From NCBI GenBank assembly GCA_027620495.1, contig JAQCEA010000002.1:62001-126000 (forward strand): a stretch of DNA of 64,000 nucleotides, read 5' to 3'. The notes beneath the pieces were generated by a model, which made no database searches, was not told where the DNA came from, and was given only the letters and a program-made list of their open reading frames with translations. Shown in pieces: positions 9,940-33,986 of this stretch. A program made the position numbers and the translations under genes. Origin of the DNA: Pseudomonadota bacterium. GTDB lineage: Bacteria; Pseudomonadota; Alphaproteobacteria; Puniceispirillales; Puniceispirillaceae. Each line of letters begins with the position of its first letter. Positions within the stretch are counted from its first letter, which is position 1.

Positions 9940-10621
9940 GCGCGTCTGACCCCGGCACATAAAACGGGCGATAGGGCGGCGGCGATGGCAACAAGGCGCG
10001 TACATCACTAAATGGAAAGCGGCTATCGATCCGATAGGCCTCGGCATAATGTCCGTCTGGGGCATTGCATTGCGCCGCCCGAAACCGGTTCACAATCTGG
10101 GTGGCGGCGACAAAACGCTGAGGGTGCTGGCTGGTATGTGCCATGATGGCGTTTTGTTTCGCGGTAAAATAAGGAGTGATATCGACATAATAATCTGGGG
10201 TAAAGCTGACCCCCATTAAGGTGTCGCAAAACAGGACCGGGCAGATAAAGCCAGCGGCGTCGCTGACAAATCGTGACAAGGCACGGTGATCGGGGTGATA
10301 GTCTTCTGGTGCATGCGTGATCACCAAATCTGGTTTGGTTTCGCGGATCATGCTGGTGATGGTGTTGGCGGCGTCTGGGGCTGATGATAAATGCCCGTCT
10401 GGAAGATTAAGCAAATGCACATCACCAAGTTCCGCAAGCCCGGCGCGGGCCTCTACCGCCCGCTGTTTGGCCAATGCTGGGCCGGGGTCACTGCCGCCAG
10501 CGGCACCATCGGTGGCGACCACAAGATGCAAATTATCGCCGCGCGCCGCCGTCGCCGCTAGCAGACCATACATAAAAATTTCCAAATCATCAGGATGCGC
10601 CCCAATGGCCATAATCTGCAT
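9932..10621 (-). CDS. PIG-L (LmbE) family deacetylase
   Basis: 'IGAHPDDLEIFMYG', 'TDGAAGG', 'RAVEARAGLAELG', 'HAPEDYHPDHRALSRFV'. Confidence 0.9.
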   Translation of the reverse strand: MQIMAIGAHPDDLEIFMYGLLAATAARGDNLHLVVATDGAAGGSDPGPALAKQRAVEARAGLAELGDVHLLNLPDGHLSSAPDAANTITSMIRETKPDLVITHAPEDYHPDHRALSRFVSDAAGFICPVLFCDTLMGVSFTPDYYVDITPYFTAKQNAIMAHTSQHPQRFVAATQIVNRFRAAQCNAPDGHYAEAYRIDSRFPFSDVRALLPSPPPYRPFYVPGSDALI

Positions 10622-16715: not shown

Positions 16716-16782
16716 ATTAATGCTCATTAAATAATAAACGGTGCCAACGCCGTATAAGCTAAGATCAAAACGGGAGATTCAG

Positions 16783-18075
16783 ATGACTAAATCAATAATA
16801 GCTGGGGCTGTCGGCCTTGCCGCCATCTCAGCCATAACTTTTGGTGCGGGTGTTGCGCAGGCAAAAGACAGCATCACAATCGCGGTGCCAAGCTTTTTAA
16901 CTGGTGGTGCGGCCGGGCCATTTGGCATTCCGGCAATGAATGGTGCCAAGATGGTTGCGGACGCTATAAACAAAGGCGCGTTGCCAGCCCCATATAACAC
17001 AAAAGGTTTCGGTGGAGCAGTTGCCAGTATAATTGAACTGGATGAAGGGGGCGGTGGAACCAAGCAGGTTGCAGAATACCGTAATCTAGTCGAAAAGAGG
17101 AACGTTGATGCCGTTGTTGGTTACATTTCATCGGGCAATTGCCAGGCTTTGGCGCCAGTTGTTGAAGAATTGAAACAATTTACGATTTTTGCGACATGTG
17201 GAACTCCACGAATATTTGAGGAAGCGCCACGAAAATACCTTTTCAGAACAATGGGACATGCGACAGCAGACAATGTTGCCGCGGCCATGTATGTTAAAGA
17301 AAAGTTCCCAAATCTCAGTAGTTACACTGGCATAAACCAAAATTATGCATGGGGGCAAGACTCCTGGAGAGATTTTGATTTGACTATGAAACAAATCATG
17401 CCGGGAGCTACAGCTTCAGATAAATTCCAATTCCCAAAAGTTTTTGTTGGTCAGTATGGATCGGAGATATCGGCTTTATCGCTGGACAAAGCAGAGCTGG
17501 TGCACTCTAGTTTTTGGGGTGGAGATTTAGAGTCATTTATATTCCAGAGTTCTGCAAGAGGTTTGTTCAAAAATAAAATTGGTGTGATGACCGTTGGTGG
17601 AACAGCAGCCTATCGTCTCGGCAAGAAACTACCTAATGGACTCATCATAGGAGCTCGTGGACCATATGGCATCCTTGTAAAAGACCGTGATACACCTCTG
17701 AATAAATGGTTTATAGAGACTTACAAAAATATTTATGGCATCTACCCATCCGGTCCAGCATACCAATATGGGCAAGCTATTTTGGCAGCAAAAATTGCTT
17801 ATGATAAAGCTGGCAGTGATGCAACAGATGAGCAATTGGCAGATGCCTTGCGTGGGATAACGTTTGAGTCCTTTTCAACAACTATTGAAATGAGCCTCGG
17901 TGGCGGTCATCAGGCTGTTACTGAAAACGGTTATGGTGTCACAAAATATGATGACGAAAACGGTGAGAATGTTGTGACCGATGTCAAGTTTTACCCAGGC
18001 TCTTGTGTTATGCCACCAGAGGGTGTTGAGAGCGTACAGTGGATCAATGGGGGTATGAAAGGCGCCAAGTGCTAA
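16783..18075 (+). CDS. ABC transporter substrate-binding protein (Liv/amide type)
   Basis: Signal peptide 'MTKSIIAGAVGLAAISAITFGAGVAQA', periplasmic-binding fold type I motifs 'VDAVVGYISSGNCQALAPVVEE'; followed by LivHMGF homologues. Confidence 0.88.
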   Translation: MTKSIIAGAVGLAAISAITFGAGVAQAKDSITIAVPSFLTGGAAGPFGIPAMNGAKMVADAINKGALPAPYNTKGFGGAVASIIELDEGGGGTKQVAEYRNLVEKRNVDAVVGYISSGNCQALAPVVEELKQFTIFATCGTPRIFEEAPRKYLFRTMGHATADNVAAAMYVKEKFPNLSSYTGINQNYAWGQDSWRDFDLTMKQIMPGATASDKFQFPKVFVGQYGSEISALSLDKAELVHSSFWGGDLESFIFQSSARGLFKNKIGVMTVGGTAAYRLGKKLPNGLIIGARGPYGILVKDRDTPLNKWFIETYKNIYGIYPSGPAYQYGQAILAAKIAYDKAGSDATDEQLADALRGITFESFSTTIEMSLGGGHQAVTENGYGVTKYDDENGENVVTDVKFYPGSCVMPPEGVESVQWINGGMKGAKC

Positions 18076-18085
18076 ATTGAATTGC

Positions 18086-18117
18086 CTTGCTAGCGGCCAT
18101 ATTTGGTCGCTAGCAAG
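18086..18117 (+). other. Hairpin between SBP and permease genes (10-bp perfect stem CTTGCTAGCG/CGCTAGCAAG)
   Basis: CTTGCTAGCG gccatatttggt CGCTAGCAAG, 11 bp after the SBP stop, no following U-tract. Confidence 0.8.
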
Positions 18118-18163
18118 AACCCCCTTTGGTATTTCATTTTTCATTTAATTTGAGGCAGTTGCC

Positions 18164-19060
18164 ATGGAAACCTTCCTGACGATCCTGTTGGATGGGCTTC
18201 AATTTTCTTCCTATCTGTTCATTGTGTCAGCTGGCCTGACGATCATTTTTGGGGTGATGAAAATCCTCAATGTTTGTCATGGTAGTTTTTATGCGTGGGG
18301 TGCCTACACAGCGGCTTTTTTCATTGGTAAATTTTCTGATATGGGTTTGCCAGATGCCCTTGGGTTTTTGATCATTATCGCTGCGGCTATTGTGGTAGGG
18401 GTGGTGCTCGGTTTGATTATTGAGCAAGGCATTCTCAAACATATGTATCACCGCGATGAGGTGTTGATCGTTCTGGCAACATTTGGGTTGTTTTTGGTTC
18501 TTGAGGATATCATTCTGATTGCCTTTGGCACTGACCCTTATTTTGCCTATCAACCCATGGCTCTGCTTGAGTCAGTTGAAATGGGTGGAGTGATACGGGA
18601 TGTGTATGGATTGACATTGATCGGTGTGGCCACATTTGTTGCCGTTGGATGCTGGCTGCTGCTAAATAAAACAAAATGGGGTGTGATTTTAAAGGCGGTC
18701 ATTTTTGACCGTGAAATGGGCATCTCTATGGGGATCAATGTGCCGTTTGTTTACACATTGACCTTTATTGGCGGAGCCATTTTGGGCGGCCTTGGAGGGG
18801 CGTATATCGCCCCAACAATTTCAGTTGCTCCTGGTCTTGGCACGGAGGTGATTGTCCTCTCATTTGCGGTTGTTGTTGTCGGGGGCATGGGTTCAATTGC
18901 TGGGGCGGCGATCGGTTCATTAATTATTGGTCTCTTGCGAGCCTTGGCGGTGCATGAATTGCCGCAGGTCGAATTATTTGTTGTGTTTGCCGTGATGGCA
19001 ATTGTTTTGGTGTTCCGCCCGGAAGGGTTGTTTGCGCCAGCCAAGCCAAGGAAGATTTAG
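18164..19060 (+). CDS. livH: Branched-chain amino acid-type ABC transporter permease LivH
   Basis: 'LFIVSAGLTIIFGVMKILNVCHGSFYAWGAY', 'VVVVGGMGSIAGAAIGSLIIGL'. Confidence 0.92.
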   Translation: METFLTILLDGLQFSSYLFIVSAGLTIIFGVMKILNVCHGSFYAWGAYTAAFFIGKFSDMGLPDALGFLIIIAAAIVVGVVLGLIIEQGILKHMYHRDEVLIVLATFGLFLVLEDIILIAFGTDPYFAYQPMALLESVEMGGVIRDVYGLTLIGVATFVAVGCWLLLNKTKWGVILKAVIFDREMGISMGINVPFVYTLTFIGGAILGGLGGAYIAPTISVAPGLGTEVIVLSFAVVVVGGMGSIAGAAIGSLIIGLLRALAVHELPQVELFVVFAVMAIVLVFRPEGLFAPAKPRKI

Positions 19061-19061
19061 C

Positions 19062-19997
19062 ATGCTGAGAGACACCACATCAAAAGTCGTTTTGTTTGGC
19101 GGCATCGCGATCATCTTGCTAGGGGCGATCATGCCAAACTGGATCGTCAACCAGTTAATGTTTGGATTTTCCCGGGCGCTGGCCATTCTTGGTCTGTTGG
19201 TTCTATGGCGGACTGGCCTTGTGTCATTTGGTCATGCTTTCTATTTCGGGCTGGGTGCCTACACCGTTGCAATTGTTGATATCCAGCTTGGCGTGACAGA
19301 TGTGTTTGTCAGGCTGTTTGGCGGGGCGATCATTGCTGGTATTGCTGGCTTTATCATTGGCTTTATTATGCGCAATTACCGCGACATTTTCTTTGCCATG
19401 CTGAATACCGCGATTTCGATGGTTCTTTACGGCATTATTGTGAAGACGGAATCGCTTGGCTCAACCGATGGCTTTGCAATCTCATTGCCGACAATATTTG
19501 GTATCGCACCAGAGACAAAATATCCGCTGTTCATCATCATAACGATGATTGCGATGATCAGCGCGCTGTTGATCAATTTCTATCTGAAAACAACAGTTGG
19601 CCGGTTAACAACGCCAATTCGCGACAATGAAATCCGGGTCGAATATCTCGGGTTTTCCGTGGCACATGCGATCCATCTTAAATATACAATTTCGGCTGTT
19701 CTTGCCGGTGGTGCTGGGGCGTTGATGGCAATGTCATTGGGGCAGGTTGACCCTGATTCAATGATTAACTGGACGGTGTCTGGTGAGCTTGTCTTTATTA
19801 CCATTCTATCTGGGCCGGGCAATGTCATTGCACCATTTATTGGGTCTTTGGTTTTCGAGGTATTGCGGACATACGCATTTGAATTGGCACCGCAAGCCTG
19901 GCAGTTGATTGTTGGGGCGACATTCCTGACAGTCATCTTCTTCTTGCCGGGCGGTATTTGGAGCTTGATTGCAAAGCTTGGAAGGAAAAAGTCATGA
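19062..19997 (+). CDS. livM: Branched-chain amino acid-type ABC transporter permease LivM
   Basis: 'GLVSFGHAFYFGLGAYTVAI', 'RLTTPIRDNEIRVEYLG', 'TISAVLAGGAGALMAM'. Confidence 0.92.
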   Translation: MLRDTTSKVVLFGGIAIILLGAIMPNWIVNQLMFGFSRALAILGLLVLWRTGLVSFGHAFYFGLGAYTVAIVDIQLGVTDVFVRLFGGAIIAGIAGFIIGFIMRNYRDIFFAMLNTAISMVLYGIIVKTESLGSTDGFAISLPTIFGIAPETKYPLFIIITMIAMISALLINFYLKTTVGRLTTPIRDNEIRVEYLGFSVAHAIHLKYTISAVLAGGAGALMAMSLGQVDPDSMINWTVSGELVFITILSGPGNVIAPFIGSLVFEVLRTYAFELAPQAWQLIVGATFLTVIFFLPGGIWSLIAKLGRKKS

Positions 19998-20752
19998 CTA
20001 GTGCGGCTCCGATTTTACAAGTCCGGGACCTGCTGAAAACCTTTGGCGCGGTGGTGGCGGCAAAAGACATCAATATTGATGTGTCAAAAGGTGAAATTGT
20101 CGGCATTATTGGTGCGAATGGCGCTGGCAAAACCTGTTTTGTGAATATGGTCACCGGGTATTTAGCCCCGACAGCGGGCAGCATCGTATTTGAAGGCACC
20201 GAGCTGGTTGGCAAGGGGCCGCGCGAGGTCACACATGCAGGCATTTCGCGCTCGTTTCAGGTATCACAGGTTTTCCACTCAATGACAGTTGAAGAAAATC
20301 TGCGTATCGCGCTGGCGATTGCGGAAAACCGTGGGGTGAATGCGTTGCGTCTGATGGAAAGTGACGCGCTAGAGGCAAAATGTTCAGATGTGTTGCGGCG
20401 CTATAAGCTGGAACCGCACAAACATATGACGGTCAGTGTTCTCTCGCAAGGTATCCGCAAATTGCTCGACATTGCCATGGCGGTGGTGAGTGAGCCACGA
20501 ATCCTGTTACTCGACGAACCCACAAGCGGCATCAGTGTCGAAGAAAAATTTGATTTTATGGATGTGGTGATGGGGGCGCTGAAAGAAGACAACGTCACCG
20601 TTCTGTTTGTTGAACATGATATGGAAATTGTCGAACGCTATGTCAGTCGGGTGTTGGCTTTCTATCAAGGTGAAATCATTGCAGATATGGCGCCTGACAA
20701 AGCTCTTGCCGATAATAAAGTGCGAGAATTTGTGATTGGCAAACGGCATTAA
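19994..20752 (+). CDS. livG: ABC transporter ATP-binding protein LivG
   Basis: Walker A 'GANGAGKT', 'SVLSQGIRKLLDIAMAV', Walker B 'ILLLDEPTSGI', 'VEHDMEIV'. Confidence 0.93.
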   Translation: MTSAAPILQVRDLLKTFGAVVAAKDINIDVSKGEIVGIIGANGAGKTCFVNMVTGYLAPTAGSIVFEGTELVGKGPREVTHAGISRSFQVSQVFHSMTVEENLRIALAIAENRGVNALRLMESDALEAKCSDVLRRYKLEPHKHMTVSVLSQGIRKLLDIAMAVVSEPRILLLDEPTSGISVEEKFDFMDVVMGALKEDNVTVLFVEHDMEIVERYVSRVLAFYQGEIIADMAPDKALADNKVREFVIGKRH

Positions 20753-20778
20753 AATTCAGAGATAGGACAGTAAATACT

Positions 20779-21423
20779 ATGTTGATTGTTGATGCGCTAG
20801 ATGTCGATATAAATGGCACCCCCATTCTGCGTGATATTGGGCTGGAAATTAAAACTGGCGAGATTATTGGCCTGATTGGTCGCAACGGTGCTGGCAAAAC
20901 AACCTTTTTGCGCTCGGTGATGGGGTTGTTGCCAATCAATAGTGGCAAGATTGATTTTGATGATCACGCGTTGCACAGCCTGCCGGGGCATCGCCGGGCA
21001 CATTTGCGCATCGGCTATATGCCAGAAGACCGGCGGTTGGTGCCGGAAATGACAGCTGAAGAAAATATTTTGCTGCCAGTCTGGTCGACCAATATTGACG
21101 GGTATGAAGACCGTTTGAACTGGATTTATAAAATTATCCCTGAATGTGAAAAATTCCGCACCATGGCGGCCAATTCGCTATCTGGTGGCCAGCAAAAGCT
21201 GGTGGCATTAGGGCGGGCTTTGATGGTGGGGCATAAATTATTGTTGCTTGACGAGCCAACCGAGGGCATTGCACCGGTGTTGGCACAGCGTATGGGTGAA
21301 ATTCTGGCATCTCTCAAAAAAGAAGGGGTGTCGATCATCATCGCTGAATCAAATGACGCGCATGTCGCAAATGTGATTGACCGCACCTATGTGATCGAGC
21401 GCGGATCGATCGTCAGCAACTAA
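20779..21423 (+). CDS. livF: ABC transporter ATP-binding protein LivF
   Basis: Walker A 'GRNGAGKTT', 'LSGGQQKLVALGRALMVGHKLLLLDEPTEGIAP'. Confidence 0.93.
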   Translation: MLIVDALDVDINGTPILRDIGLEIKTGEIIGLIGRNGAGKTTFLRSVMGLLPINSGKIDFDDHALHSLPGHRRAHLRIGYMPEDRRLVPEMTAEENILLPVWSTNIDGYEDRLNWIYKIIPECEKFRTMAANSLSGGQQKLVALGRALMVGHKLLLLDEPTEGIAPVLAQRMGEILASLKKEGVSIIIAESNDAHVANVIDRTYVIERGSIVSN

Positions 21424-21440
21424 ACAAAAAACAGGTCTGA

Positions 21441-22394
21441 TTGATGACGGCACCGGTGAAATTTGTTGCAAAGGGTGTTATTCCGGCAACCCTTATTGCG
21501 TTTGATCAGGATTTTGCGGTCGATCAGAAAAACTTGCTGAAGCATCTTCGCGATGTTGCCGCAACAGATGGGTTGAGCGCCATTACCGTCAATGGCCATG
21601 CCTCGGAAATCCACGCATGTAGCGTTGCTGAACAGCAAGAGCTTTTGGCCTTATCACTGGCTGAAGTCGGTGACAGGTTGCCTTTGGTAAATGGTGTATA
21701 TGCAGATGGTAGCCATGCGGCTGTTGAAATTGCGCGCATGGCAGCTGCCGAAGGGGCCAGCGCCTTGCTTGTCTTCCCGCCAAATAGCATGAGCATGGGG
21801 GGGCAACACCGCCCAGAGATGGCGGTGCGTCATTTTCAAATGATTGCCGAGGCAACTGATCTGCCGCTGATTTTGTTTCAATATCCACAGGCCACTGGGC
21901 TTGGTTATCCTTTTGCAACGATGGAAATAATTTTCGATGCGGTACCGTCAATCGTTGCGATTAAGGATTGGTGTAACGACCCGATGTTGCACGAAAAACA
22001 TATCCGTAATTTTCAATCGCGGCCGCGTCCGGTGAATGTGTTGACAACGCATTCATCTTGGTTGATGGCGTCGTTGTCGATGGGGCCAGCCGGATTGCTG
22101 TCTGGGGCCGGAAGCGTGATTGCAGATTTGCAGGTGGCGTTATTCAACGCCATAAAGGCAAATGATTTGCAGACGGCGCGGCAGGTCAATGACCAAATTT
22201 ATCCGCTTGCACAGGCGTTTTACCGGGCACCATTTCTAGATATGCATAACCGGATGAAAGTCTGTCTGGAATTGTTGGGGCGGATTGATCGTGCGATTGT
22301 AAGGCCGCCATTAATGCCGTTGTCATCTGCTGAAATAGACGAATTGAAAACCGCGCTTGTGGCGTCTGGGCTGATGACTGGGTCTGGGCGCTAG
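21441..22394 (+). CDS. Dihydrodipicolinate synthase (DapA) family protein
   Basis: 'GVIPATLIAFDQDFAVD', 'GLSAITVNGHASEIHACSVAEQQELL', 'LPLILFQYP', 'VAIKDW' Schiff-base lysine. Confidence 0.87.
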   Translation: MMTAPVKFVAKGVIPATLIAFDQDFAVDQKNLLKHLRDVAATDGLSAITVNGHASEIHACSVAEQQELLALSLAEVGDRLPLVNGVYADGSHAAVEIARMAAAEGASALLVFPPNSMSMGGQHRPEMAVRHFQMIAEATDLPLILFQYPQATGLGYPFATMEIIFDAVPSIVAIKDWCNDPMLHEKHIRNFQSRPRPVNVLTTHSSWLMASLSMGPAGLLSGAGSVIADLQVALFNAIKANDLQTARQVNDQIYPLAQAFYRAPFLDMHNRMKVCLELLGRIDRAIVRPPLMPLSSAEIDELKTALVASGLMTGSGR

Positions 22395-22415
22395 ATTATT
22401 ATTAGGGGGGAAAAT

Positions 22416-22739
22416 ATGGCTCTATACGAATTGCGCACCTATCAGGTGTATGTTGGCAAAATGAAAGACGCGGTCGCAGCCTATCAGGATTATGGCTGGC
22501 CAGCGATTAAAAATGGCGGGTTTGATAACAAGCTTGTTGGCTATTTCACTTCAGATACTGGTGGCTTGCATCAGATTGTCCATTTGTGGAAATTTGATGA
22601 TTATAATGACCGGCGCCAGCATTGGGACACCATGTTTCAGGATACGGCATTCATGGAATTTGCTGGCAAAATCAGACCATTATTGATGACCCAGAAAAAC
22701 CAGTTGTTGCATGCCTCGCCGTGGGGACCGCACCCATAG
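22416..22739 (+). CDS. NIPSNAP family protein
   Basis: 'MALYELRTYQVYVGKM', 'LVGYFTSDTGGLHQIVHLWKFDDYNDRRQHW'. Confidence 0.9.
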   Translation: MALYELRTYQVYVGKMKDAVAAYQDYGWPAIKNGGFDNKLVGYFTSDTGGLHQIVHLWKFDDYNDRRQHWDTMFQDTAFMEFAGKIRPLLMTQKNQLLHASPWGPHP

Positions 22740-22797: not shown

Positions 22798-23259
22798 ATG
22801 GTGAACATCAAATATATCATCTGGGCGTTGATAGCCGGGGCATTTATCCCGCTCATTGGCATTTTGAACGGGCGAGTGGGCCGGGCATTGGGCGAGCCGT
22901 TTTATGCAACGGTGATGCTGTTTGGTGTGGCTATTATATTGGCGCTGGTGGTTTCGGTTGTTTTTGGCAAAGACGCCCCTTCGTTCCAAAACCTGCAAAC
23001 CCTGCGGCCGATGGATTACACGGCTGGCTTTATCGTTGCTTTTTATGTGATCAGCGCAACCGTGCTGGCTGGCAAAATTGGTGTGGCCAATTTCATTGTT
23101 ATGGCGGTGTCAGGCCAGATCATGTTTTCGCTGATGATTGACCATTTTGGCCTGTTCGGCGCACCGGTAAAACCAATTAATATGACCCAGCTTGTTGGGG
23201 CTGTTTTGCTGTTAATCGGGCTGGCAACAACGCAGCTTGCTAGCAGTAAATTAGATTAA
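22798..23259 (+). CDS. DMT family transporter, YdcZ-like
   Basis: About 150-aa, 5-TM, 'GAFIPLIGILNGRVGRALGEPFYATVMLFGV', 'LVGAVLLLIGL'. Confidence 0.82.
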   Translation: MVNIKYIIWALIAGAFIPLIGILNGRVGRALGEPFYATVMLFGVAIILALVVSVVFGKDAPSFQNLQTLRPMDYTAGFIVAFYVISATVLAGKIGVANFIVMAVSGQIMFSLMIDHFGLFGAPVKPINMTQLVGAVLLLIGLATTQLASSKLD

Positions 23260-23843
23260 CGCAGGCCGTCTTTACCTTCGGCTTCATCATGTGTCAGCCC
23301 GCCAACGCGAGGTAACGGACGCCCGGAATCAGCAACCGCAACAGCCACTAAAATTTCATTTGCCCGCGGCGCGTCATTCACCCGCACTTCCATGCCATCA
23401 AAATGTGATCTGACATAAGCGGCGTCTTTATGCCCGAGCGGGACGTCAAGTGGCTGGCCCATACCGCCGCGTTTCTTGTTTGACGGCACCAGAGCCGCGC
23501 CTTTTTCAACTGCCGCACGCAAAGGTTTGCCAAGCCGTGGATGCAAAATGGCCGCGGCATGTTCCAATTCTCCATTTTCTCCAACCAATGCGGCCTTGCC
23601 ATAGCTTTGTGCGTCAGCGGGTGAGATGCCAAGCGCGGCAACGCACGCCTCTCCCAATTTTGCGCCTAGCTCTTCGCCAATCACCATGAGCGCCTCTAAA
23701 TTCTCTACATAACGCCCAGCAAAAGGGTTTTCGATAACTGCAACCGCCGCCGCACGGCGTGTGGCTGGATGAATGGGCTGTTCAGCTTCGCTGTGTGTTT
23801 CCTCAACAATGGTAACAATTTTGCGAATCTTGGCGGTTGTCAT
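23256..23843 (-). CDS. Amino acid synthesis family protein (DUF1185/PF06684)
   Basis: 'TRRAAAVAVIENPFAGRYVENLEALMVIGEELG', 'YGKAALVGENGELEHAAAILHPRLGKPLRAAVEKGAALVPSNKKRG'. Confidence 0.88.
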   Translation of the reverse strand: MTTAKIRKIVTIVEETHSEAEQPIHPATRRAAAVAVIENPFAGRYVENLEALMVIGEELGAKLGEACVAALGISPADAQSYGKAALVGENGELEHAAAILHPRLGKPLRAAVEKGAALVPSNKKRGGMGQPLDVPLGHKDAAYVRSHFDGMEVRVNDAPRANEILVAVAVADSGRPLPRVGGLTHDEAEGKDGLR

Positions 23844-23908: not shown

Positions 23909-23933
23909 ATTTGTTCGCTGTCAAACAATAATC
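23909..23933. promoter_or_regulatory. Operator candidate 1: ATTTGTTCGCTGTCAAACAATAATC
   Basis: TTGTT-N7-AACAA-like inverted repeat sharing 'AAACAATAATC' with the site at 25887; lies in the DUF1185/marR divergent region. Confidence 0.6.
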
Positions 23934-24097
23934 AGCCTGATTATCTGCCGGAACAGTGCGTCATTTAGAAGGTAAATTCATCATGTTAGTTACCGCTGTT
24001 GTAATGGAAAATATCTATCGCGGCGCAGTAAATATCCAGCAGATGCGGCTTGATTGCATCGCCAACAAGGTTCGGAATTAAAGGAACATTATTATCC

Positions 24098-24508
24098 ATG
24101 ACAGATGACTACAGACTTGATGATCAGGTAGGCTATAAATTGCGACTTGCTAGCCAGCGCCATTTGGAAATCTTTTCGCAACATCTCTCCGACATTACGC
24201 CCACCCAATTTTCAATTTTGGCGCGTCTTTATGAGGTTGGTGAGACATCACAAAATCAGCTTGGCAGGCTGGTGGCTATGGATGCGGCCACCACCAAAGG
24301 GGTAATCGCGCGGCTGCTGGAAAAAAATCTTGTCGAGGCGCGTGCCGATCCAAATGATGCACGGCGTCTGCAAATTTCATTGACCGAAACTGGCCGTGAA
24401 CTGACCATTGATGCGATTGAAAAGGCGCGCAAAATTACCGAAGATACGGTGGCGAATTTAAACGGCCATGATGTGAAGAGGCTGCTAGAATTGCTGGATA
24501 AGATCTAG
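24098..24508 (+). CDS. MarR family transcriptional regulator
   Basis: 'LDDQVGYKLRLASQRHLEIF...LTPTQFSILARLYEVGETSQNQLGRLVAMDAATTKGVIARLLEKNLVEARADPNDARRLQISLTETG' winged HTH. Confidence 0.92.
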   Translation: MTDDYRLDDQVGYKLRLASQRHLEIFSQHLSDITPTQFSILARLYEVGETSQNQLGRLVAMDAATTKGVIARLLEKNLVEARADPNDARRLQISLTETGRELTIDAIEKARKITEDTVANLNGHDVKRLLELLDKI

Positions 24509-24535
24509 GTTTTAAATCGTCTTGTGCGATAAATA

Positions 24536-24555
24536 AATGTTTGCATACTAATGAA
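24536..24555. promoter_or_regulatory. Operator candidate 2: AATGTTTGCATACTAATGAA
   Basis: 15/20 identity to the reverse complement of the site at 25887; upstream of the enamidase-like gene. Confidence 0.5.
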
Positions 24556-24617
24556 ATGCGCAGGGTATTTTTATTGTGGCAATCGCCCGGTGCGCCATCG
24601 GTGAAAAGGGGCAAATC

Positions 24618-25787
24618 ATGTCTACACAAAAGCTTGTGATCAAGAATATAGGCCAGATTTTGTCTGGCAAGCTGGAAGAACCACTGATTGATGGTGATTG
24701 TGTGATTGCCATTGATGGACATATCACCGCCATTGGCCGCTATCGTGAGTTAGATACCGATCAGGCAACGCAGATTGTTGACGCGCATGGCGTGACGCTG
24801 GCCCCGGGGTTGATTGACAGCCACGTACATCCGGTTATTGGCGATTATACGCCGCGCCAACAACAATTGAACTGGATTGATTCATGCTTGCATGGCGGCG
24901 TGACAACAATGATTTCAGCTGGTGAGGTGCACGCGCCCGGCCGTCCAAAGGATATTGTTGGATTGAAAGCGATGGCGATTGCCTCGCAACGTTGGTACGA
25001 AAATTTCCGGCCATCTGGCGTCAAAATGCTGGCTGGCGCACCGGTGATTGAAGAGGGCATGGTCGAGTCTGATTTTAAAGAGCTTGCTGATGCCGGGGTT
25101 AAATTGCTTGGCGAAGTTGGTTTAGGGTCGGTAAAGGCCGGTGAAACAGCCGCCCAAATGGTAAAATGGGCGCGCAAATATGGCATTCAGTCCACCATCC
25201 ATACAGGTGGCCCATCGATCCCGGGGTCAGGCTTGATCGACAAAGATGTCGTGCTAGAGGCAGATGCAGATATCATTGGCCATATCAATGGCGGGCATAC
25301 CGCGTTGCCTGATGACCAGATCACCTGTCTGTGCGAAAGCTGTACGCGCGGCATTGAAATTGTGCATAATGGCAATGAAAGGGCCGGTTTGCTTGCTATG
25401 CGCACGGCTTTTGAAATTGGTCAGGCAGAGCGTATTATTTTAGGCACTGATGCGCCAGCCGGATCAGGTGTGCAACCTCTTGGCATCTTGCGGATGATTG
25501 CCATGCTATCGAGCCTTGGTGATATTCCGCCAGAAATCGCCTTTTGTTTTGCCACCGGTAATACCGCCAGAATGCGTGAGCTTGACAGCGGCATCATTGA
25601 AATTGGTAAGTCGGCAGATTTTATCTTGATCGACAGTGCCCAGCATGCGCCCGGCAAGACCATGCTTGAAAGCATTCATCAAGGCAATCTTCCGGGTGTT
25701 GGCATGACGATTATTGACGGCATTGTCCGCACCCAGCGCAGCCGGAATACGCCGCCTGCTGAACGTTTACCAGAAGTGGTGCTGTAG
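24618..25787 (+). CDS. Amidohydrolase, enamidase-like (homologue of Eubacterium barkeri nicotinate-pathway enamidase)
   Basis: 'VTLAPGLIDSHVHPVIGDYTPRQQQLNWIDSCLHGGVTTMISAGEVHAPGRPKDIVGLKAMAIA', 'GEVGLGSVK', 'IHTGGPSIPGS', 'GHINGGHTALPD', 'RSRNTPPAERLPEVVL' resemble enamidase as I remember it. Confidence 0.8.
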   Translation: MSTQKLVIKNIGQILSGKLEEPLIDGDCVIAIDGHITAIGRYRELDTDQATQIVDAHGVTLAPGLIDSHVHPVIGDYTPRQQQLNWIDSCLHGGVTTMISAGEVHAPGRPKDIVGLKAMAIASQRWYENFRPSGVKMLAGAPVIEEGMVESDFKELADAGVKLLGEVGLGSVKAGETAAQMVKWARKYGIQSTIHTGGPSIPGSGLIDKDVVLEADADIIGHINGGHTALPDDQITCLCESCTRGIEIVHNGNERAGLLAMRTAFEIGQAERIILGTDAPAGSGVQPLGILRMIAMLSSLGDIPPEIAFCFATGNTARMRELDSGIIEIGKSADFILIDSAQHAPGKTMLESIHQGNLPGVGMTIIDGIVRTQRSRNTPPAERLPEVVL

Positions 25788-25796
25788 ACCGGGTGC

Positions 25797-25856
25797 TGGC
25801 ATGACTAGCTGTTGGCATGACTAGCTGTTGGCATGACTGGCTGTTAGAATGACCGG
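25797..25856. repeat. Tandem repeat, 16-bp unit (TGGCATGACTAGCTGT), 3 full copies plus a degenerate fourth
   Basis: Units start at 25797, 25813, 25829 and 25845. Confidence 0.93.
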
Positions 25857-25886
25857 GCAAGAGAAAGCCGATTTACAAAAATGTTA

Positions 25887-25906
25887 ATTGTTAGTATACA
25901 AACAAT
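25887..25906. promoter_or_regulatory. Operator candidate 3: ATTGTTAGTATACAAACAAT (18/20 palindromic)
   Basis: Near-perfect palindrome 37 bp upstream of the AOR start. Confidence 0.7.
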
Positions 25907-25942
25907 AATCGATTATGTGGGTTTGGCTAAAAGGGGCTGGCT

Positions 25943-27667
25943 ATGCGTAAATTCATAGAAATAGATTTGCATCACCAAAAAAAAACCGAGCGCCAGCTTA
26001 CTGGCCGTGAACTGGCCGAGGCTGGGCGGTATCTGATCGCGCGTATGCTGGTCGAACGTAATATCGCAGGCATTGATCCGTTGGCACCGGAAAATCCATT
26101 GATCTTTTCAGTCGGGCCATTTGCCGGGACGAATTTTTCCAATGCGAACCGTTTGTCTGTTGGTTGCAAAAGCCCGCTGACCGGCGGTGTGAAAGAGGCC
26201 AATAGCGGTGGCACATTTGGATTTGCCATGGGGCAATTACAGATCGCTGGGCTGACCTTTACCGGTGCCAGTGACAATTGGGTGGTGATCCGCATCACCA
26301 AAGATGGTGAAATTTCATTTGATGATGCCGCCCCCTATTTGGGGCTTGGCAATTTTGATTGTGCCAAAAAATTACATGCTGTTTATGGCGAAAAAACTTC
26401 GTTGGCTCTATGCGGCCCGGTTGGTGAATATTTGGGGTTAATGGCTGGTGTTGCCTTTTCTGATACCGACAACCGGCCGTCACGATTGGCGGCGCGCGGC
26501 GGTGTTGGTGCGGTGATGGGTGCCAAAAAAATAAAGGCGGTGGTGATTGATAAAGACCGTATGCCGCCGGTTCATGATCGCAAAAAGGTCATGGGCGCGA
26601 TTAAGGATTATGGCAAAAAGTTAGGTGAGTCCGTTGCCGTGCAAAGCCTGAAAACAACGGGTACAGCCATGGTGGCTGATCTGACCAATCATCTCGGTGC
26701 CTTGCCGGTGCGTAATTTTTCTGCCGGTCAATTAACTGGCACGAATGATGGCCCGCTGAAAATGGGTGGGGATTTTATCCGTGAGTTGAATAGTGGGCGT
26801 GGCGGCGAAACATCGCATGCATGTATGCCGGGCTGCCTGATTAAATGCAGCAATGTCTATGTTGACGATACTGGGCGCGAATTGGTCTCGCCGCTTGAAT
26901 ATGAAACCATTGGCTTGCTTGGGACAAATTGCGGGTTAACCGAGCCTGATGATGTGGCGCGCCTGAATGAAACAGCGAATGATCTTGGCGTTGATAGCAT
27001 AGAGCTTGGCGCCACCATCGCGGTTTTGATGGAAGCGGGTGAGGGGGCGTTTGGTGATTTGCCCTTTATGCAGGCCTGTCTTGAAGAAATCCGTTCCGGC
27101 AGTGAAAAAGGCCGACTTTATGCCTCTGGTACGGCGCGGGTTGGTGCGGCGCTGCAGGTGGCACGGGTGCCGGTCATCAAGAAACAGGCGATTAGTGCGT
27201 ATGACCCGCGGGTGATCGAGGTCACTGGTATTTCAATGATGCTGACAGCACAAGGCGCCGACCACACGGTTGGTAACGCGCCATCTTTTAAATGCGATGA
27301 CAAATCCATCGCCGAACTTGTGGCTGAAAGCTTGCGTATGCAGATCAATAGCGCGGTCGCCGACTCATTTGGTTTATGTGTGTTTGGCCGGTCAGTGACT
27401 GACGATAATCTGAAACTGATTGCTGATGCGATTAATGATGCGTTTGATGCAGGCGTTGACCCAGAATTTATCCGGCATATCGCGCTTGAAACCTTGCGGC
27501 TAGAGGCTGTTTTTAACAAAGCCGCCGGTTTCGATGAAGATGATGACGAATTGCCAGCATTTTTCACCGATGAACCTCTGCCGCCAACAAATAAGACCAA
27601 TCGATTGTTCAGCCGGGAAGTGAACCAGCAAATGCAGGTGCTTTTGGCGAATGCGGCGGTGCAGTGA
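25943..27667 (+). CDS. Aldehyde:ferredoxin oxidoreductase (AOR) family tungstopterin protein
   Basis: 'ENPLIFSVGPFAGTNFSNANRLSVGCKSPLTGGVKEANSGGTFG', 'AARGGVGAVMGAKKIKAVVI', Cys motif 'HACMPGCLIKCSN', 'DSFGLCVFG'. Confidence 0.92.
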   Translation: MRKFIEIDLHHQKKTERQLTGRELAEAGRYLIARMLVERNIAGIDPLAPENPLIFSVGPFAGTNFSNANRLSVGCKSPLTGGVKEANSGGTFGFAMGQLQIAGLTFTGASDNWVVIRITKDGEISFDDAAPYLGLGNFDCAKKLHAVYGEKTSLALCGPVGEYLGLMAGVAFSDTDNRPSRLAARGGVGAVMGAKKIKAVVIDKDRMPPVHDRKKVMGAIKDYGKKLGESVAVQSLKTTGTAMVADLTNHLGALPVRNFSAGQLTGTNDGPLKMGGDFIRELNSGRGGETSHACMPGCLIKCSNVYVDDTGRELVSPLEYETIGLLGTNCGLTEPDDVARLNETANDLGVDSIELGATIAVLMEAGEGAFGDLPFMQACLEEIRSGSEKGRLYASGTARVGAALQVARVPVIKKQAISAYDPRVIEVTGISMMLTAQGADHTVGNAPSFKCDDKSIAELVAESLRMQINSAVADSFGLCVFGRSVTDDNLKLIADAINDAFDAGVDPEFIRHIALETLRLEAVFNKAAGFDEDDDELPAFFTDEPLPPTNKTNRLFSREVNQQMQVLLANAAVQ

Positions 27668-27723
27668 TGCGCGCCGTACATGCGTTCTGAAGGGCTTGAC
27701 GGGCATGAAAAATTGCAGTCTCC

Positions 27724-27747
27724 TTTATTTGTGTACGAACAAATAAA
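27724..27747. promoter_or_regulatory. Operator candidate 4: TTTATTTGT-GTACGA-ACAAATAAA
   Basis: Perfect 9-bp arms with 6-bp spacer; 14/19 identity to candidate 3; upstream of the molybdenum hydroxylase operon. Confidence 0.62.
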
Positions 27748-27800: not shown

Positions 27801-28679
27801 ATGCAAGGTGTGCTAGCCGCAGATCATCATGATGATTATGTAAGAGCGCCAGACCTAGACGCCGCCATAGCCACGTTGGCCGCGGGGCCGTGCCGCATTT
27901 TGGCTGGTGGTACAGATGTGTTCCCCTCATTACAGGATCGCCCGCTTGTCGGCCGGGTGCTGGATATTTCTGGTATCGCTGATTTGCGCCAGATTACACA
28001 AAGCGATGACCATTGGTCGATTGGCGCGGCGGTCAACTGGCGTGATGTCATTCGGGCGGCGCTTCCCGCGTCCTTTGATGGACTAAAAGCGGCGGCCCGC
28101 GAGGTCGGGTCATGGCAAATTCAAAACCGGGCAACTCTGGTTGGCAACATTTGTAATGCGTCACCGGCGGCAGATGGAGTGCCGGCCTTGCTGACGATGG
28201 ATGCCGCGGTACAATTGCAATCTTGCCGGGGTAGCCGAGTGATGCCATTGGCATCATTTATCACTGGCAATCGTAAAACCAAACGTGCCGAAGACGAGAT
28301 GGTCACCGCCATTCTGGTGCCAAAGACGGCCACCGCCGGGCAGGGATATTTCTATAAATTGGGTGCCCGCCGCTATTTGGTGATTTCGATTGGTATGGTG
28401 GCGATGCGGCTATTATGCGGCAAGCAACGCACCATTTCTGAAATAGCGATCGCTGTAGGTGCCTGTTCGGAAGTGGCCACCCGGCTGCATGATCTGGAAC
28501 AGCATTTATGCGGCCAGCCATTGGCGGGCGCGGCTGATATGGTGTCAGCGTCACATTTTGCGGGCCTATCCCCGATTGATGATGTGCGCGCACCGGCAAG
28601 CTATCGTATGGATGCGGTTGAAGAGTCGGTGCGGCGCCTTTTGGTACAGGCTGGTTCTGACATAGGACATGAAAAATAA
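27801..28679 (+). CDS. Molybdenum hydroxylase FAD-binding subunit (XdhB/CoxM type)
   Basis: 'YVRAPDLDAAIATLAAGPCRILAGGTDVFPSL', 'QIQNRATLVGNICNASPAADGVPALL', 'GQGYFYKLGARRYLVISI'. Confidence 0.92.
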   Translation: MQGVLAADHHDDYVRAPDLDAAIATLAAGPCRILAGGTDVFPSLQDRPLVGRVLDISGIADLRQITQSDDHWSIGAAVNWRDVIRAALPASFDGLKAAAREVGSWQIQNRATLVGNICNASPAADGVPALLTMDAAVQLQSCRGSRVMPLASFITGNRKTKRAEDEMVTAILVPKTATAGQGYFYKLGARRYLVISIGMVAMRLLCGKQRTISEIAIAVGACSEVATRLHDLEQHLCGQPLAGAADMVSASHFAGLSPIDDVRAPASYRMDAVEESVRRLLVQAGSDIGHEK

Positions 28680-31441
28680 TGGCGGGCATCAGCTTTTTAT
28701 TAAATGGAAAATCTGTGACCAGTATGGCGCGCCCGACAACCCGGGTCAGCGATGTATTGCGTGGCGATTTTGGCCTGAAAGGTACCAAGGTTGGCTGTAA
28801 CGCTGGCGATTGTGGGGCCTGCACCATTTTGCTTGATGATGAACCGGTTTGTAGCTGTCTGGTCGCGCTGGGACAGATTGACGGGCAATCAGTCACCAGT
28901 GTTGAAGGGTTGCATCAGTCGGGTGTCATTGAAAGATTGCAGCAAAGTTTTCTGGCGCATGGGGCGGCACAATGCGGGATTTGTACACCCGGCATGCTGG
29001 TATCTGCGGCACATTTGTTAGCGTCAACCCCCCAACCAAACCGCGCCGAGGTCGAAGATGCGCTTGGTGGTGTGTTATGCCGGTGTACCGGCTATAGTAA
29101 AATTATTGACGCGGTGATGCAGGCGCATTCGCACCTGCCGCAACCAATGAAACCGGGCGCTGGCAACAATGTCGGCAGTTCGATTCAGCATCTAGACGGC
29201 GTCGCAAAGGTGCAGGCGGGGCTTGCCTATGGCGCAGATAAGGTGCCTGCAAATGCGCTGTTATTGCGTGTTATTCGTAGCCCGCACCACTATGCTGATT
29301 TTGAAATTGGCGATAAATCGGCGTTTTTAGCGGCCCACCCCGGTATTGTTGCCGTGTTTGATGCCACAGATGTGCCGGGCCGGAATTGTTTTGGTGTCAT
29401 TCCTCTATTTGCTGACCAGCCGGTGTTTGCCGAAACCACAGCGCTATACCGCGGTGATGCAGTTGCCGCGATTGTTGGTGAAGCAGACGTGATTAATAGG
29501 TTTGACGAGGCGCAGTTTCCGATTAACTGGCAGCCGCATGAAACTATATTGACGCCGCAAGCCGCGCTTCATCCAGATGCCCGGCAGATGCATAAAGGCC
29601 GTGACGGCAATATTTTGGTCAAAGGCTTTGTGGCCCGCGGCGATGCTGATGCGGCTCTGGCACGGGCGGCGCACCGGGTCACCATACATTCAAGCACACC
29701 CTTTATCGAACATGCCTATATTGAACCTGAGGCTGGTTACGCGGTGCGCGAGGGTGACAGGCTGATGATTTATGGCTGTACGCAGGCCGCTCAAATGGAC
29801 CGTGATAGCCTTGCCGAAATTATGGCGATGGATGTTGATGCCATCCGGGTGATGCCAAGCGCGGTTGGCGGTGGCTTTGGATCAAAGCTTGATATCTCCT
29901 TTCAGCCCTTTGTGGCATTGGCGGCGTGGCGGTTAAACCGGCCCGTGGCGATTTGTTACACACGCGGTGAATCGATGCGATCCTCGACCAAACGTCACCC
30001 GTCGGATATCCGGCTTGAGGTGGGATGTGATGCCGATGGACGGATCAGCGGGTTTGTTTTTGATGGGGTGTTTAACACTGGTGCCTATGCCAGTTGGGGG
30101 CCAACGGTGGCGAACCGGGTACCGGTACATGCCAGCGGGCCTTATGTGACCCCAGATTACCGGGCATCAAGCGTTGCGGTTCACACCAATGCACCGCCGG
30201 CTGGTGCCTTTCGTGGATTTGGTGTGCCGCAATCAGCCGTTGCGCAGGAATGTGCCTATGATCTGTTGGCAGAAAAGCTGGATATGGACCGGTTGGCATT
30301 CCGGCGGATGAATGCGTTGCAAAATAATATGCCGACAGTCACCGGCCAGAGCTTTGCGACCGGGGTTGGCATTGCTGAGTGTTTGGCGGCTTTGCAAGCA
30401 GAATGGAACGCGGCAAATGCGCGGGCCGACAAATTTAACAAAGATGCCAAAAACAGCGGGTCAATGTTACGCAAAGGCATTGGCATTGCCAGTTGCTGGT
30501 ATGGTTGCGGCAATACATCTCTGCCAAACCCGTCAACCATGCGGATGGGGGTGACGGCTGATGGGGCCTGTGTTCTGCATCAAGGCGCGATGGATATTGG
30601 CCAAGGGGCAAATACGGTTATTTCGCAAATTGCCGCAGATGCGCTGGGGGTGCCGGTACATAGCCTATCGCTGATTGATGGCGATACTGATCTCACACCA
30701 GATTGCGGCAAGACGTCGGCGTCTCGACAGACATTTGTGTCGGGAAAAGCGGCATTGCTGGCTGGCCGCGCTTTGCGTGAGGTCATTTTGCGCCACGGTA
30801 ATGTGTCTGATGATGCCAGCCTGATGATTGATGCGGCGGAAATACGACTTGTTGACAATGTGACTGGCGGTACCGCCAATATTGATCTGTCATCTTTGCC
30901 AGTGAATGCGCATGGCTATGTGTTTATGGCAGAAGAAACGTATGACCCGCCAACCACGCCGCTTGATGAAAATGGTCAAGGCGCGCCTTATGCCGTTTAT
31001 GGCTATGGAGCGCAAATGATCGAATTGACCGTGGATATCGGGCTTGGTCAGGTTCGGTTGGAAAAAATGACGACAGCGCATGATGTGGGCCGCGCGATTA
31101 ACCCGTTGCTTGTCGAGGGCCAGATCGAAGGTGGGGCGGCACAAGGTATTGGATTGGCATTGATGGAAGATTATTTGCCCGGCCGCACCGAAAATTTACA
31201 TGATTATCTGATCCCGACCATTGGCGATGTCCCGCGCTTTGAACATATCATTGTCGAAGTGACAGATGCCGAGGGGCCTTATGGGGCCAAAGGGCTGGGT
31301 GAACATGTGTTGATTCCAACCGCGCCAGCGATTGTGAACGCTATTCGTCAGGCAACCGGTGTGTTGATCACGCATCTTCCGGCCACCGCTGATAAAATTC
31401 GTGCGGCATTACACCAGCAGGCACAAGAGTTAAAGTCATGA
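28679..31441 (+). CDS. Molybdenum hydroxylase, fused [2Fe-2S] and molybdopterin-binding subunit (920 aa)
   Basis: 'CNAGDCGACTILLDDEPVCSCL', 'CGICTPGM...CRCTGY', then Mo domain 'AFRGFGVPQS' and catalytic Glu motif 'GAKGLGEHVLIP'. Confidence 0.93.
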   Translation: MAGISFLLNGKSVTSMARPTTRVSDVLRGDFGLKGTKVGCNAGDCGACTILLDDEPVCSCLVALGQIDGQSVTSVEGLHQSGVIERLQQSFLAHGAAQCGICTPGMLVSAAHLLASTPQPNRAEVEDALGGVLCRCTGYSKIIDAVMQAHSHLPQPMKPGAGNNVGSSIQHLDGVAKVQAGLAYGADKVPANALLLRVIRSPHHYADFEIGDKSAFLAAHPGIVAVFDATDVPGRNCFGVIPLFADQPVFAETTALYRGDAVAAIVGEADVINRFDEAQFPINWQPHETILTPQAALHPDARQMHKGRDGNILVKGFVARGDADAALARAAHRVTIHSSTPFIEHAYIEPEAGYAVREGDRLMIYGCTQAAQMDRDSLAEIMAMDVDAIRVMPSAVGGGFGSKLDISFQPFVALAAWRLNRPVAICYTRGESMRSSTKRHPSDIRLEVGCDADGRISGFVFDGVFNTGAYASWGPTVANRVPVHASGPYVTPDYRASSVAVHTNAPPAGAFRGFGVPQSAVAQECAYDLLAEKLDMDRLAFRRMNALQNNMPTVTGQSFATGVGIAECLAALQAEWNAANARADKFNKDAKNSGSMLRKGIGIASCWYGCGNTSLPNPSTMRMGVTADGACVLHQGAMDIGQGANTVISQIAADALGVPVHSLSLIDGDTDLTPDCGKTSASRQTFVSGKAALLAGRALREVILRHGNVSDDASLMIDAAEIRLVDNVTGGTANIDLSSLPVNAHGYVFMAEETYDPPTTPLDENGQGAPYAVYGYGAQMIELTVDIGLGQVRLEKMTTAHDVGRAINPLLVEGQIEGGAAQGIGLALMEDYLPGRTENLHDYLIPTIGDVPRFEHIIVEVTDAEGPYGAKGLGEHVLIPTAPAIVNAIRQATGVLITHLPATADKIRAALHQQAQELKS

Positions 31442-32937
31442 CTGAACGCAAAAGCCGTGATGAACGGGTGGATGAAAAAATCCGTTGTGATGCCTGTCCG
31501 GTGATGTGTTACATCGCCAATGGTAAATCGGGCGCTTGTGACCGGTATGCCAATGACGCCGGACAATTGGTCCGATTGGACCCGCTGGTGATCATGCAGC
31601 GCCGGGTCGATGAGGGCGGCAATCTTGTGCCGTTTTTAGATACTGACAAACCATGGGACGGCAGCATTGTTACGCCAAATGACCATTTTGTGACGGCGAT
31701 TGGTGCTGGTACGACTTATCCAGATTACAAACCGGCCCCGTTTATCGTTGCCAGCCAGCAAGGCGGCGTTGACATGGTGACCGTTGTGACCGAGGGCATT
31801 TTTAGCTATTGCGGTGCCAAGGTAAAAATTGACACCGACCGCCATATCGGGCCGGAACGCAGTCTGGTACGCGTTGATGGCGAGGCGGTTGGGCATGTCA
31901 CAACAGGTGAATATGGATCGCAAATGCTGTCGCTGGGCGGGGTGAATCATTTGACCGGCGGCAGCAAAAAGGAAGGCCGGGTGACCTGTGCGACATTGCT
32001 GAGCCTGTGCAATGGTGAAGCCGTTGACATGCAGGTCGATGAGGGGTCGCAATTGGTAATTCAGGCGGGTCAACCGCCGATCATCAATGGGGTCACTGAA
32101 GACCGTATGCGGGTTGGGTGTGGATCAGCTACCATTGGTATGTTTGCCGCGCAATGGCAGGGGTTGGTCGATGAAGTGGTGATTGTTGATGATCATATCA
32201 CCGGAGTAATGTCGGAACATCAAGCTGGTAAAGTGCTAGGCTGGAAGCCGTCAGGAATCAAAATTCTGGGCCGCCGGTCAACCCCCGGGCGCTATTTTCA
32301 GGTGGCAGAACCAGGCACCGGATGGGGCGGTACCAAACTAACCGATCCGCTAGAGATCCTTGGCCCGTTTGATAGTAAAGTGGCACAACCCGGCCAATCA
32401 TTGTTGATGGTGTCAACGACGGGTGAACAATTTGCCTATTACGAACTGGATGCGGCGCTTAACCCGATTGCTATGGAGATGCCGGACAGGTTGCGTCCCT
32501 CAATTGCAAGGATTGAAGAAAATTGCGAACCGGCGTTGACATCGGTGGCGTTTATGGGGGGCGCTGGCGGGTCGTTGCGCGCCGGGGTGACGGAAAATCC
32601 GGTACAGTTAACCCGCGCGGTAAAACAGGCGCTGGTTCGGGTCAGCTGTGGCGGTGCCCCGGTCTATATCTGGCCGGGTGGCGGTATCACCATAATGGCT
32701 GACGTGATGCAAATACCGGAAAATGCATTTGGTTATGTGCCAACCCCGGCGTTGGTGGCACCGATTGAATTTACCATGCGGCAAAGTGACTATCAGGCAC
32801 TTGGCGGTCATATGGGCCATGTGATGTCAATTGAAGAGGCGCTAGCAGGCAAAGTCGGGCGGCAGAATGATCATCGTTTGCAGGGCATGAAAGCTGTTCA
32901 GCAACGCGCCGATATTCCGTGGCCGGGCAAAGGGTAA
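31438..32937 (+). CDS. 6-hydroxynicotinate reductase-like Fe-S protein
   Basis: N-terminal CX2CX3CX9C ('CDACPVMCYIANGKSGAC'), 'FIVASQQGGVDMVTVVTEGIFSYCGAKVKIDTDRHIGPE', 'LGGVNHLTGGSKKEGRVTCATLLSLCNGE'; recalled match to the family annotated as 6-hydroxynicotinate reductase. Confidence 0.78.
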   Translation: MTERKSRDERVDEKIRCDACPVMCYIANGKSGACDRYANDAGQLVRLDPLVIMQRRVDEGGNLVPFLDTDKPWDGSIVTPNDHFVTAIGAGTTYPDYKPAPFIVASQQGGVDMVTVVTEGIFSYCGAKVKIDTDRHIGPERSLVRVDGEAVGHVTTGEYGSQMLSLGGVNHLTGGSKKEGRVTCATLLSLCNGEAVDMQVDEGSQLVIQAGQPPIINGVTEDRMRVGCGSATIGMFAAQWQGLVDEVVIVDDHITGVMSEHQAGKVLGWKPSGIKILGRRSTPGRYFQVAEPGTGWGGTKLTDPLEILGPFDSKVAQPGQSLLMVSTTGEQFAYYELDAALNPIAMEMPDRLRPSIARIEENCEPALTSVAFMGGAGGSLRAGVTENPVQLTRAVKQALVRVSCGGAPVYIWPGGGITIMADVMQIPENAFGYVPTPALVAPIEFTMRQSDYQALGGHMGHVMSIEEALAGKVGRQNDHRLQGMKAVQQRADIPWPGKG

Positions 32938-33986
32938 TGGCCGCGGCGCCGCAAGCAATCATATATTCGGCCAGCCAAACGCGGCATCCTGCCGGGGCGC
33001 AGGCACAATGGCTTGATGATGGACGGCTGCATTTACATCATGGGCCAATTGACCTTGTGATTGGTGCAGATGGAACAAAGGCGGCTGTCGCTAAGGCGTG
33101 TTCTGCGGCTATTGATAGGTTTTCTACTGTCCTTGAAGAGCTGGTGAGCGAACTTGTGCTATTGCGAAAGCCGGCTCATCAAATAGCGCGCCGTCCAACA
33201 GGCTGTGTTGCCGCGCGGATGTGGGCGGCGACCATGCCGCATGCCGACATCTATAGGGATGCAAATTACGTGACGGCTATGGCGGCAGTGGCCGGGGCGG
33301 TGGCTGATGAAATTTTGTCAGTAATGCGTGATGCTGCTGATCTTGATCGTATCTATGTCAATAATGGCGGCGATATCGCGCTTTATTTGCACCCGGCGGC
33401 TGTCGCGGTACCGCATTATACGGTTGGCATCTGCGCTGACCCGGATGCGGTATTCTGGTCACATGTTGATCTTGGTGCTTCGGCGGGTGACCGGGCGGTA
33501 AGACCAGTTTCCAACGCCTTTGCCGGCACGATCACAATCACCGCGGCAGATCATGTTGGCGGTATCGCAACAAGTGGCTGGAAAGGCCGGAGCCATTCGC
33601 TGGGCGTGGCTGATCTGGTGACGGTGCTAGCACCAACAGCGGCGGCGGCTGATGTGGCGGCCACGTTGATTGCAAATGCGGTATGCCCGGATGATGAAAC
33701 AGAGTCAGACTGGCCCGGTGTGCACCGCCAACCCGCCAACGCATTAGCGCCCGATAGTGATTTGGGATCACGTCTTGTCACGGTTCATGTTGATCGGTTG
33801 CCAGATCATGTCATCACAAAAGCATTGCGGCGCGGTGCCAGCGTGGCCGAAGATATGCGTCAGTCTGGACACATATCAGCCGCTTATGGTGTGGTACAGG
33901 GTCAGGGGTTTTTGTGCGGCGCGTCAAAGCATGAGGCGGCGGCACCCGGCGCTGTTTTGTTAGATGAGACAAATGTTAAGGGGTGA
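32937..33986 (+). CDS. UPF0280 family protein (ApbE-related)
   Basis: 'YVTAMAAVAGAVADEIL', 'RIYVNNGGDIALYL', 'IATSGWKGRSHSLGVADLVTVLA'; start overlaps the previous stop (TAATG). Confidence 0.85.
   Translation: MAAAPQAIIYSASQTRHPAGAQAQWLDDGRLHLHHGPIDLVIGADGTKAAVAKACSAAIDRFSTVLEELVSELVLLRKPAHQIARRPTGCVAARMWAATMPHADIYRDANYVTAMAAVAGAVADEILSVMRDAADLDRIYVNNGGDIALYLHPAAVAVPHYTVGICADPDAVFWSHVDLGASAGDRAVRPVSNAFAGTITITAADHVGGIATSGWKGRSHSLGVADLVTVLAPTAAAADVAATLIANAVCPDDETESDWPGVHRQPANALAPDSDLGSRLVTVHVDRLPDHVITKALRRGASVAEDMRQSGHISAAYGVVQGQGFLCGASKHEAAAPGAVLLDETNVKG

Follow-up and report, generated by a model that had tools for sequence, protein, structure and literature searches.

Four inverted repeats of 18 bp in a window of 64,000 nucleotides (the window is the whole stretch of DNA that was analysed) from a SAR116 alphaproteobacterium are predicted to be operators of the MarR-family regulator encoded at 24098-24508, a putative NicR/BpsR-like repressor of nicotinate degradation; we place the probability of this reading at about 0.86. 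Judged from sequence comparison, the system is very probably a genuine gene switch sensing a breakdown product of nicotinate, and membership of the predicted regulon is proposed with moderate confidence for site 1 and with high confidence for the other three. We infer the physical binding of MarR to these sites. The preliminary description had already named the MarR encoded in the island as the candidate binder, and this is supported in silico by the rarity of the motif, its conservation at orthologous loci and its co-occurrence with a MarR subtype.

The genes involved, with the role proposed for each, are the following:

23256 to 23843, minus strand: DUF1185 (AA_synth) gene (Pfam PF06684, 6e-72), proposed target of site 1
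24098 to 24508, plus strand: MarR-family regulator, BpsR relative (Pfam MarR, E=1e-12; 2nnn, 1e-29; BpsR 6pcp, 1e-18), proposed binder
24618 to 25787, plus strand: enamidase (amidohydrolase; PDB 2vun, E=2e-107), proposed target of site 2
25943 to 27667, plus strand: AFOR-family aldehyde oxidoreductase (AOR; Pfam AFOR_N, AFOR_C), proposed target of site 3
27801 to 31441, plus strand: molybdenum hydroxylase, FAD subunit and fused FeS-Mo subunit (Pfam), probable nicotinate hydroxylase, proposed target of site 4
31438 to 32937, plus strand: probable 6-hydroxynicotinate reductase (cluster conservation)

Because it encodes an enamidase, a molybdenum hydroxylase and a probable 6-hydroxynicotinate reductase, the cluster is a reductive pathway for the breakdown of nicotinate (vitamin B3). 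The probable reductase gave zero matches in the family library; it is conserved together with the cluster in 80 loci, and its name derives partly from homology to the Eubacterium barkeri enzyme. The name also rests on the conserved cluster reported in PMC3511419, where two conserved genes without an assigned function and a putative transporter accompany the 6-hydroxynicotinate reductase. MarR is encoded with nicotinate degradation genes in the congeners and in many other loci. No second regulator was seen in the island (ORF list from 16.7 to 36 kb, main products checked), and no site was found 5' of its ABC transporter operon.

The four sites share a common register and are located as follows:

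23911 to 23928, no strand assigned: site 1, TTGTTCG-CTGT-CAAACAA, between DUF1185 and marR
24537 to 24554, no strand assigned: site 2, ATGTTTG-CATA-CTAATGA, 5' of the enamidase gene
25888 to 25905, no strand assigned: site 3, TTGTTAG-TATA-CAAACAA, 5' of the AOR gene
27725 to 27742, no strand assigned: site 4, TTATTTG-TGTA-CGAACAA, 5' of the FAD subunit gene of the molybdenum hydroxylase

The four strings first reported, beginning at 23909, 24536, 25887 and 27724, were each found to be unique, with the palindromy then given to them (18/20 for site 3, perfect 9-bp arms for site 4), and an 18-bp repeat indeed precedes every transcription unit between 23.8 and 28 kb. The half-sites need correction: TTGTT and AACAA are separated by 8 bases in sites 1 and 3 rather than by N7, and both occur exactly in these two sites only, not in three. 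All four sites align without gaps to the inverted repeat TTGTTTG-N4-CAAACAA, composed of 7-bp arms and a 4-base centre; site 4 has an additional symmetry centred 2 bp off this register.

The cluster is syntenic in 13 congeners. Site 1 is retained in all 13, in a conserved block that spans both arms, and site 3 is found in the same place in 12 of the 12 congeners whose sequence covers the gap, in degraded form in L061 and L063. Site 2 has diverged and is GCTGAC-centred in most congeners. Beyond the window genome, site 4 occurs in the nearest genome (L051) only; in the other congeners the AOR and hydroxylase genes are closely spaced and the site is absent. A profile built from the congener sequences of sites 1 and 3, with the window excluded, ranks the four reported sites first to fourth in the window, with scores of 16.4, 15.0, 10.3 and 8.2; the fifth match, at 56526, scores 7.9, barely below the fourth. 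The same profile gives 58 matches at 11 bits in 70 non-SAR116 loci, where column-permuted profiles give a mean of 1.2 (maximum 26).

A de novo search for palindromic motifs was carried out on 198 upstream regions of pathway genes from these 70 loci, a set that is partly non-independent because of the kinship among many of the loci and the upstream regions common to some adjacent genes. These regions were anchored by homology; a crude ORF caller had mislabelled many sites as coding, through spurious frames in GC-rich loci. The motif obtained, TCGTTwGTATACwAACGA, used no SAR116 data and has a gain of 1053, against 97-113 in four Markov shuffles. It recurs before non-homologous genes, being present 5' of the hydroxylase gene in 42/55 cases, of the reductase in 43/68, of the enamidase in 13/17, of marR in 14/51 and of AOR in 4/7. 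Many MarR-positive loci, mainly from Rhodobacterales, have no intergenic site at the threshold used, a count of sites that is too low because of the spurious ORFs.

In the window this cross-clade motif scores 26.2 bits at site 3, 22.0 at site 2 and 21.2 at site 4, and the next match, at 9.5, lies 12 bits lower; site 3 is the top match under both the congener profile and the cross-clade motif. Site 2, implied at first to be the weakest of the four, is thus the second-best cross-clade match in the window, and the outlier is site 1, because its centre is GCTGTC in place of GYATRC. Pattern searches of the 2.40-Mb genome also found the motif to be rare: the TTGTTTG-N4-CAAACAA arms occur with at most 1 mismatch in two places, sites 1 and 3, and the cross-clade pattern, when up to 2 mismatches are allowed, in six, including sites 2, 3 and 4. 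The loose pattern with 2 mismatches was uninformative, its matches being fewer than those of the reversed control. The motif is therefore not equally frequent elsewhere in the genome, and it is conserved in the 13 congeners and in many other bacteria, so that neither of the two sequence-based observations named beforehand as refuting the regulon was made.

The weak cross-clade score of site 1 (3.7 bits, rank 8 in the window) leaves room for a reading in which only sites 2, 3 and 4 are MarR operators, site 1 is a conserved -35 region of the DUF1185 gene, and marR and DUF1185 lie outside the regulon. Read by eye on the minus strand, site 1 holds a -35-like TTGACA, with TTGAAT 17 nt further on, and such a hexamer could alone explain the conservation. 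Nevertheless, both arms of site 1 fit the consensus and both are included in the conserved block, the site is one of the genome's two places with at most 1 arm mismatch, and the same GCTGWC centre is found at site 2 in most congeners; we consider the promoter-only explanation of site 1 possible but somewhat doubtful.

The MarR protein itself suggests what the switch would respond to. BpsR of Bordetella, a NicR homologue, loses DNA binding on 6-hydroxynicotinate, which is contacted by Tyr15, His23, Arg26 and His32 (PMC6837509). At these positions the window MarR has Tyr5, Tyr13, Arg16 and His22, three of the four being identical and His23 being replaced by Tyr13. Among 96 relatives the tyrosine is kept in 94 and the arginine in all 96; the second position is Phe, Tyr or His, and the last His, present in 55/96, is replaced by Asn in about one-third. 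The contact set is absent from four clear MarR paralogues (L044, L045, L046 and L050), a small and crude sample. By analogy with BpsR we infer that 6-hydroxynicotinate is the inducer and that the regulatory sign is repression.

In the mechanism we propose, a MarR dimer would, when nicotinate is lacking, occupy the 18-bp repeats over or beside the promoters of DUF1185/marR, of the enamidase, of AOR and of the molybdenum hydroxylase-reductase operon, blocking their transcription. Incoming nicotinate would be converted by basal hydroxylase to 6-hydroxynicotinate, which would bind at the subunit interface, open the dimer and release the DNA, so that the pathway would be induced by its own first intermediate. 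Repression by occlusion fits sites 3 and 1: site 3 overlaps a possible -10, TATACA (25895-25900), 17 nt past TTTACA (25872-25877). These promoters were assigned by eye, since a sigma-70 scan of the sequence gave a promoter count no higher than that of shuffles.

It could instead be supposed that MarR binds the sites as an activator or dual regulator, or that its ligand is nicotinate or a later intermediate: the sign is unreadable from sequence, the promoter positions rest on inspection by eye, and one pocket residue is unlike that of BpsR. We regard this as unlikely, as the characterised functional counterparts, BpsR and NicR of P. putida, are repressors (PMC6837509, PMC10269826), the possible -10 is overlapped by site 3, and 6-hydroxynicotinate is the intermediate common to both pathways at which this operator is found.

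The second of these pathways is the oxidative one. In two genomes, G151 and G649, a gene for NicC (6-hydroxynicotinate 3-monooxygenase; 5eow, E=2e-163 for the G151 protein) lies just downstream of a window-type site, 4-5 kb from a gene for a window-type MarR, and the 18-mer of site 3 is found identical 5' of nicC in another genome. Clusters with true BpsR relatives have no strong window-type site at nicC or bpsR; the palindrome found in them is another one, TTATAGyGTATACrCTATAA, with a gain of 113 where shuffles reached 47-56. The L259 stretch of G649 contains three window-type sites and zero BpsR-type sites; this genome additionally encodes a BpsR relative on another contig. The best BpsR-type match in the window scores 10.4 bits at 10304, and none lies at the pathway promoters. 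As far as these sequences indicate, the operator tracks the subtype of the regulator rather than the pathway, reductive or oxidative (nicC).

The link between motif and regulator was also surveyed class-wide in 289 genomes, taking exact matches to TYRTTWGYATRCWAAYRA and a MarR cut-off of E<=1e-12. The exact motif is present in 13/289 genomes and MarR in 52/289, with both in 10: the motif thus occurs in 10 of the 52 MarR genomes and in 3 of the 237 others (Fisher p=3e-6, uncorrected for kinship), and 42/52 MarR-positive genomes have no exact match to this strict pattern. The three motif-positive, MarR-negative genomes have sizes of 0.9-1.5 Mb, and their exact motif is probably due to chance. 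In five more genomes, from other families, the motif lies 4.6-7.6 kb from MarR.

These data bear on the idea that the sites are bound by a different, unlinked trans-acting regulator, for instance of the GntR/FCD type, the local MarR having another role. The core of the sites is GntR-like, palindromes with a TTGTATACAA-like core being typical also of GntR/FCD regulators; the three genomes with the motif and no MarR match are in its favour, as are L154, L156 and L164, all of one genus, where the exact motif lies between unrelated genes. Against it stand the co-occurrence of motif and MarR, the lack of another visible regulator in the island, and the fact that the motif accompanies one MarR subtype at two non-homologous pathways whereas BpsR clusters use another motif, which leaves an unlinked regulator a very unlikely binder. 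Chance palindromes in AT-rich intergenic DNA deserve practically no credence even though other short palindromes are present in the window, since independent motifs from other genomes pick the same sites by a wide gap and the motif is rare genome-wide, which rules chance out for sites 2, 3 and 4.

We think it fairly probable that the window MarR represents a separate group of nicotinate-sensing MarR repressors, common among Alphaproteobacteria and also present outside them. The group would have its own operator code (TYRTTwGYATRCwAAYRA), which tracks the subtype, and would control the enamidase (reductive) pathway in some genomes and the nicC (oxidative) pathway in others; its change of specificity may stem from a Lys/Arg exchange at the recognition-helix position of BpsR Arg79. 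Position 67 of the recognition helix is Lys or Gln in 47/48 window-type proteins and Arg in 16/18 BpsR-like ones. A cleaned regulator tree did not split the BpsR relatives off cleanly, and the claims are made independently of it.

The predicted regulator is set apart from the known nicotinate-responsive MarR repressors by its operator, its recognition-helix residues and the pathway controlled. BpsR (PDB 6pco, 6pcp; PMC6837509) is of the same MarR subfamily (E=1e-18); both regulators are encoded with nicotinate degradation genes, the contacts Tyr15, Arg26 and His32 are kept in the window MarR, and the predicted operators of both types have a GTATAC core. The window MarR differs in its recognition helix, with Lys67 at the position of BpsR Arg79, in having Tyr13 in place of His23, and in a Gln52-Asn53 pair that is invariant in its type; the outer arms of the operator are TTTG/CAAA rather than ATAG/CTAT, and it is found at a reductive enamidase pathway, whereas BpsR is found at nicC and nicE. 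In Pseudomonas putida the MarR protein NicR represses the nicC and nicX operons for nicotinate degradation (PMC10269826), the logic proposed for the window system, but the 6-hydroxynicotinate contacts of BpsR are reported to be non-conserved in it (PMC6837509).

No prior description of the regulon was found in the literature searched, which left most subscription journals outside its scope. A pattern read by eye becomes a testable vitamin B3 regulon for SAR116 and many other, largely marine, bacteria. Two distinct operators are predicted, one for BpsR proper and the other for a repressor group with a DNA recognition sequence that PMC6837509 calls unclear. The analysis also offers a natural comparison in which the operator specificity of a MarR protein shifts while the presumed effector stays constant.

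In Azorhizobium caulinodans and Bradyrhizobiaceae SG-6C the reductive nicotinate cluster likewise contains a 6-hydroxynicotinate reductase, and the consulted portion of that report describes no regulator or operator for it (PMC3511419). Nicotinate fermentation by Eubacterium barkeri uses an enamidase (PDB 2vun) and a reductive route, as in the window cluster; E. barkeri is an anaerobe, whereas the window host, a SAR116 alphaproteobacterium, encodes a molybdenum hydroxylase with a fused subunit and has an AFOR-family gene among the members of the cluster.

The probable 6-hydroxynicotinate reductase (31438-32937, + strand) finds no match among the Pfam or NCBIfam models; its relatives, at 64-94% identity, are present in many genomes, and at most loci the reductase gene is accompanied by DUF1185 and UPF0280 genes, which probably belong to the nicotinate pathway. 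The features considered here are:

16741-22739: branched-chain-type ABC transporter operon, in the same island as the nicotinate genes
23256-23843: DUF1185 gene
25797-25853: tandem repeat of a 16-bp unit, 3.6 copies, TGGCATGACTAGCTGT
25943-27667, + strand: aldehyde ferredoxin oxidoreductase family gene, within the nicotinate cluster of this marine alphaproteobacterium
32925-33986: UPF0280 gene

An aldehyde ferredoxin oxidoreductase family gene is also found in nicotinate clusters of other genomes (loci L082, L083, L094, L139, L142, L198 and L202). The tandem repeat lies directly 3' of the enamidase stop codon, a position where some congeners carry another short repeat, differing from that of the window.

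In the window, no operator was found upstream of the ABC transporter operon. De novo search of L217-L246, which are nicotinate clusters with true relatives of the Bordetella repressor BpsR, gave the palindrome TTATAGyGTATACrCTATAA, predicted from sequence to be a BpsR-type operator; it differs in sequence from the window-type motif, and the GTATAC core is common to both.

Among unrelated genes, an exact match to the window-type motif is located at 1501 in L154, L156 and L164 (three genomes of one genus), adjoining a cysteine desulfurase-like gene, and might represent either a wider regulon or the site of another regulator. In L154 and L164 a putrescine-type binding protein gene lies beside the cysteine desulfurase-like gene.
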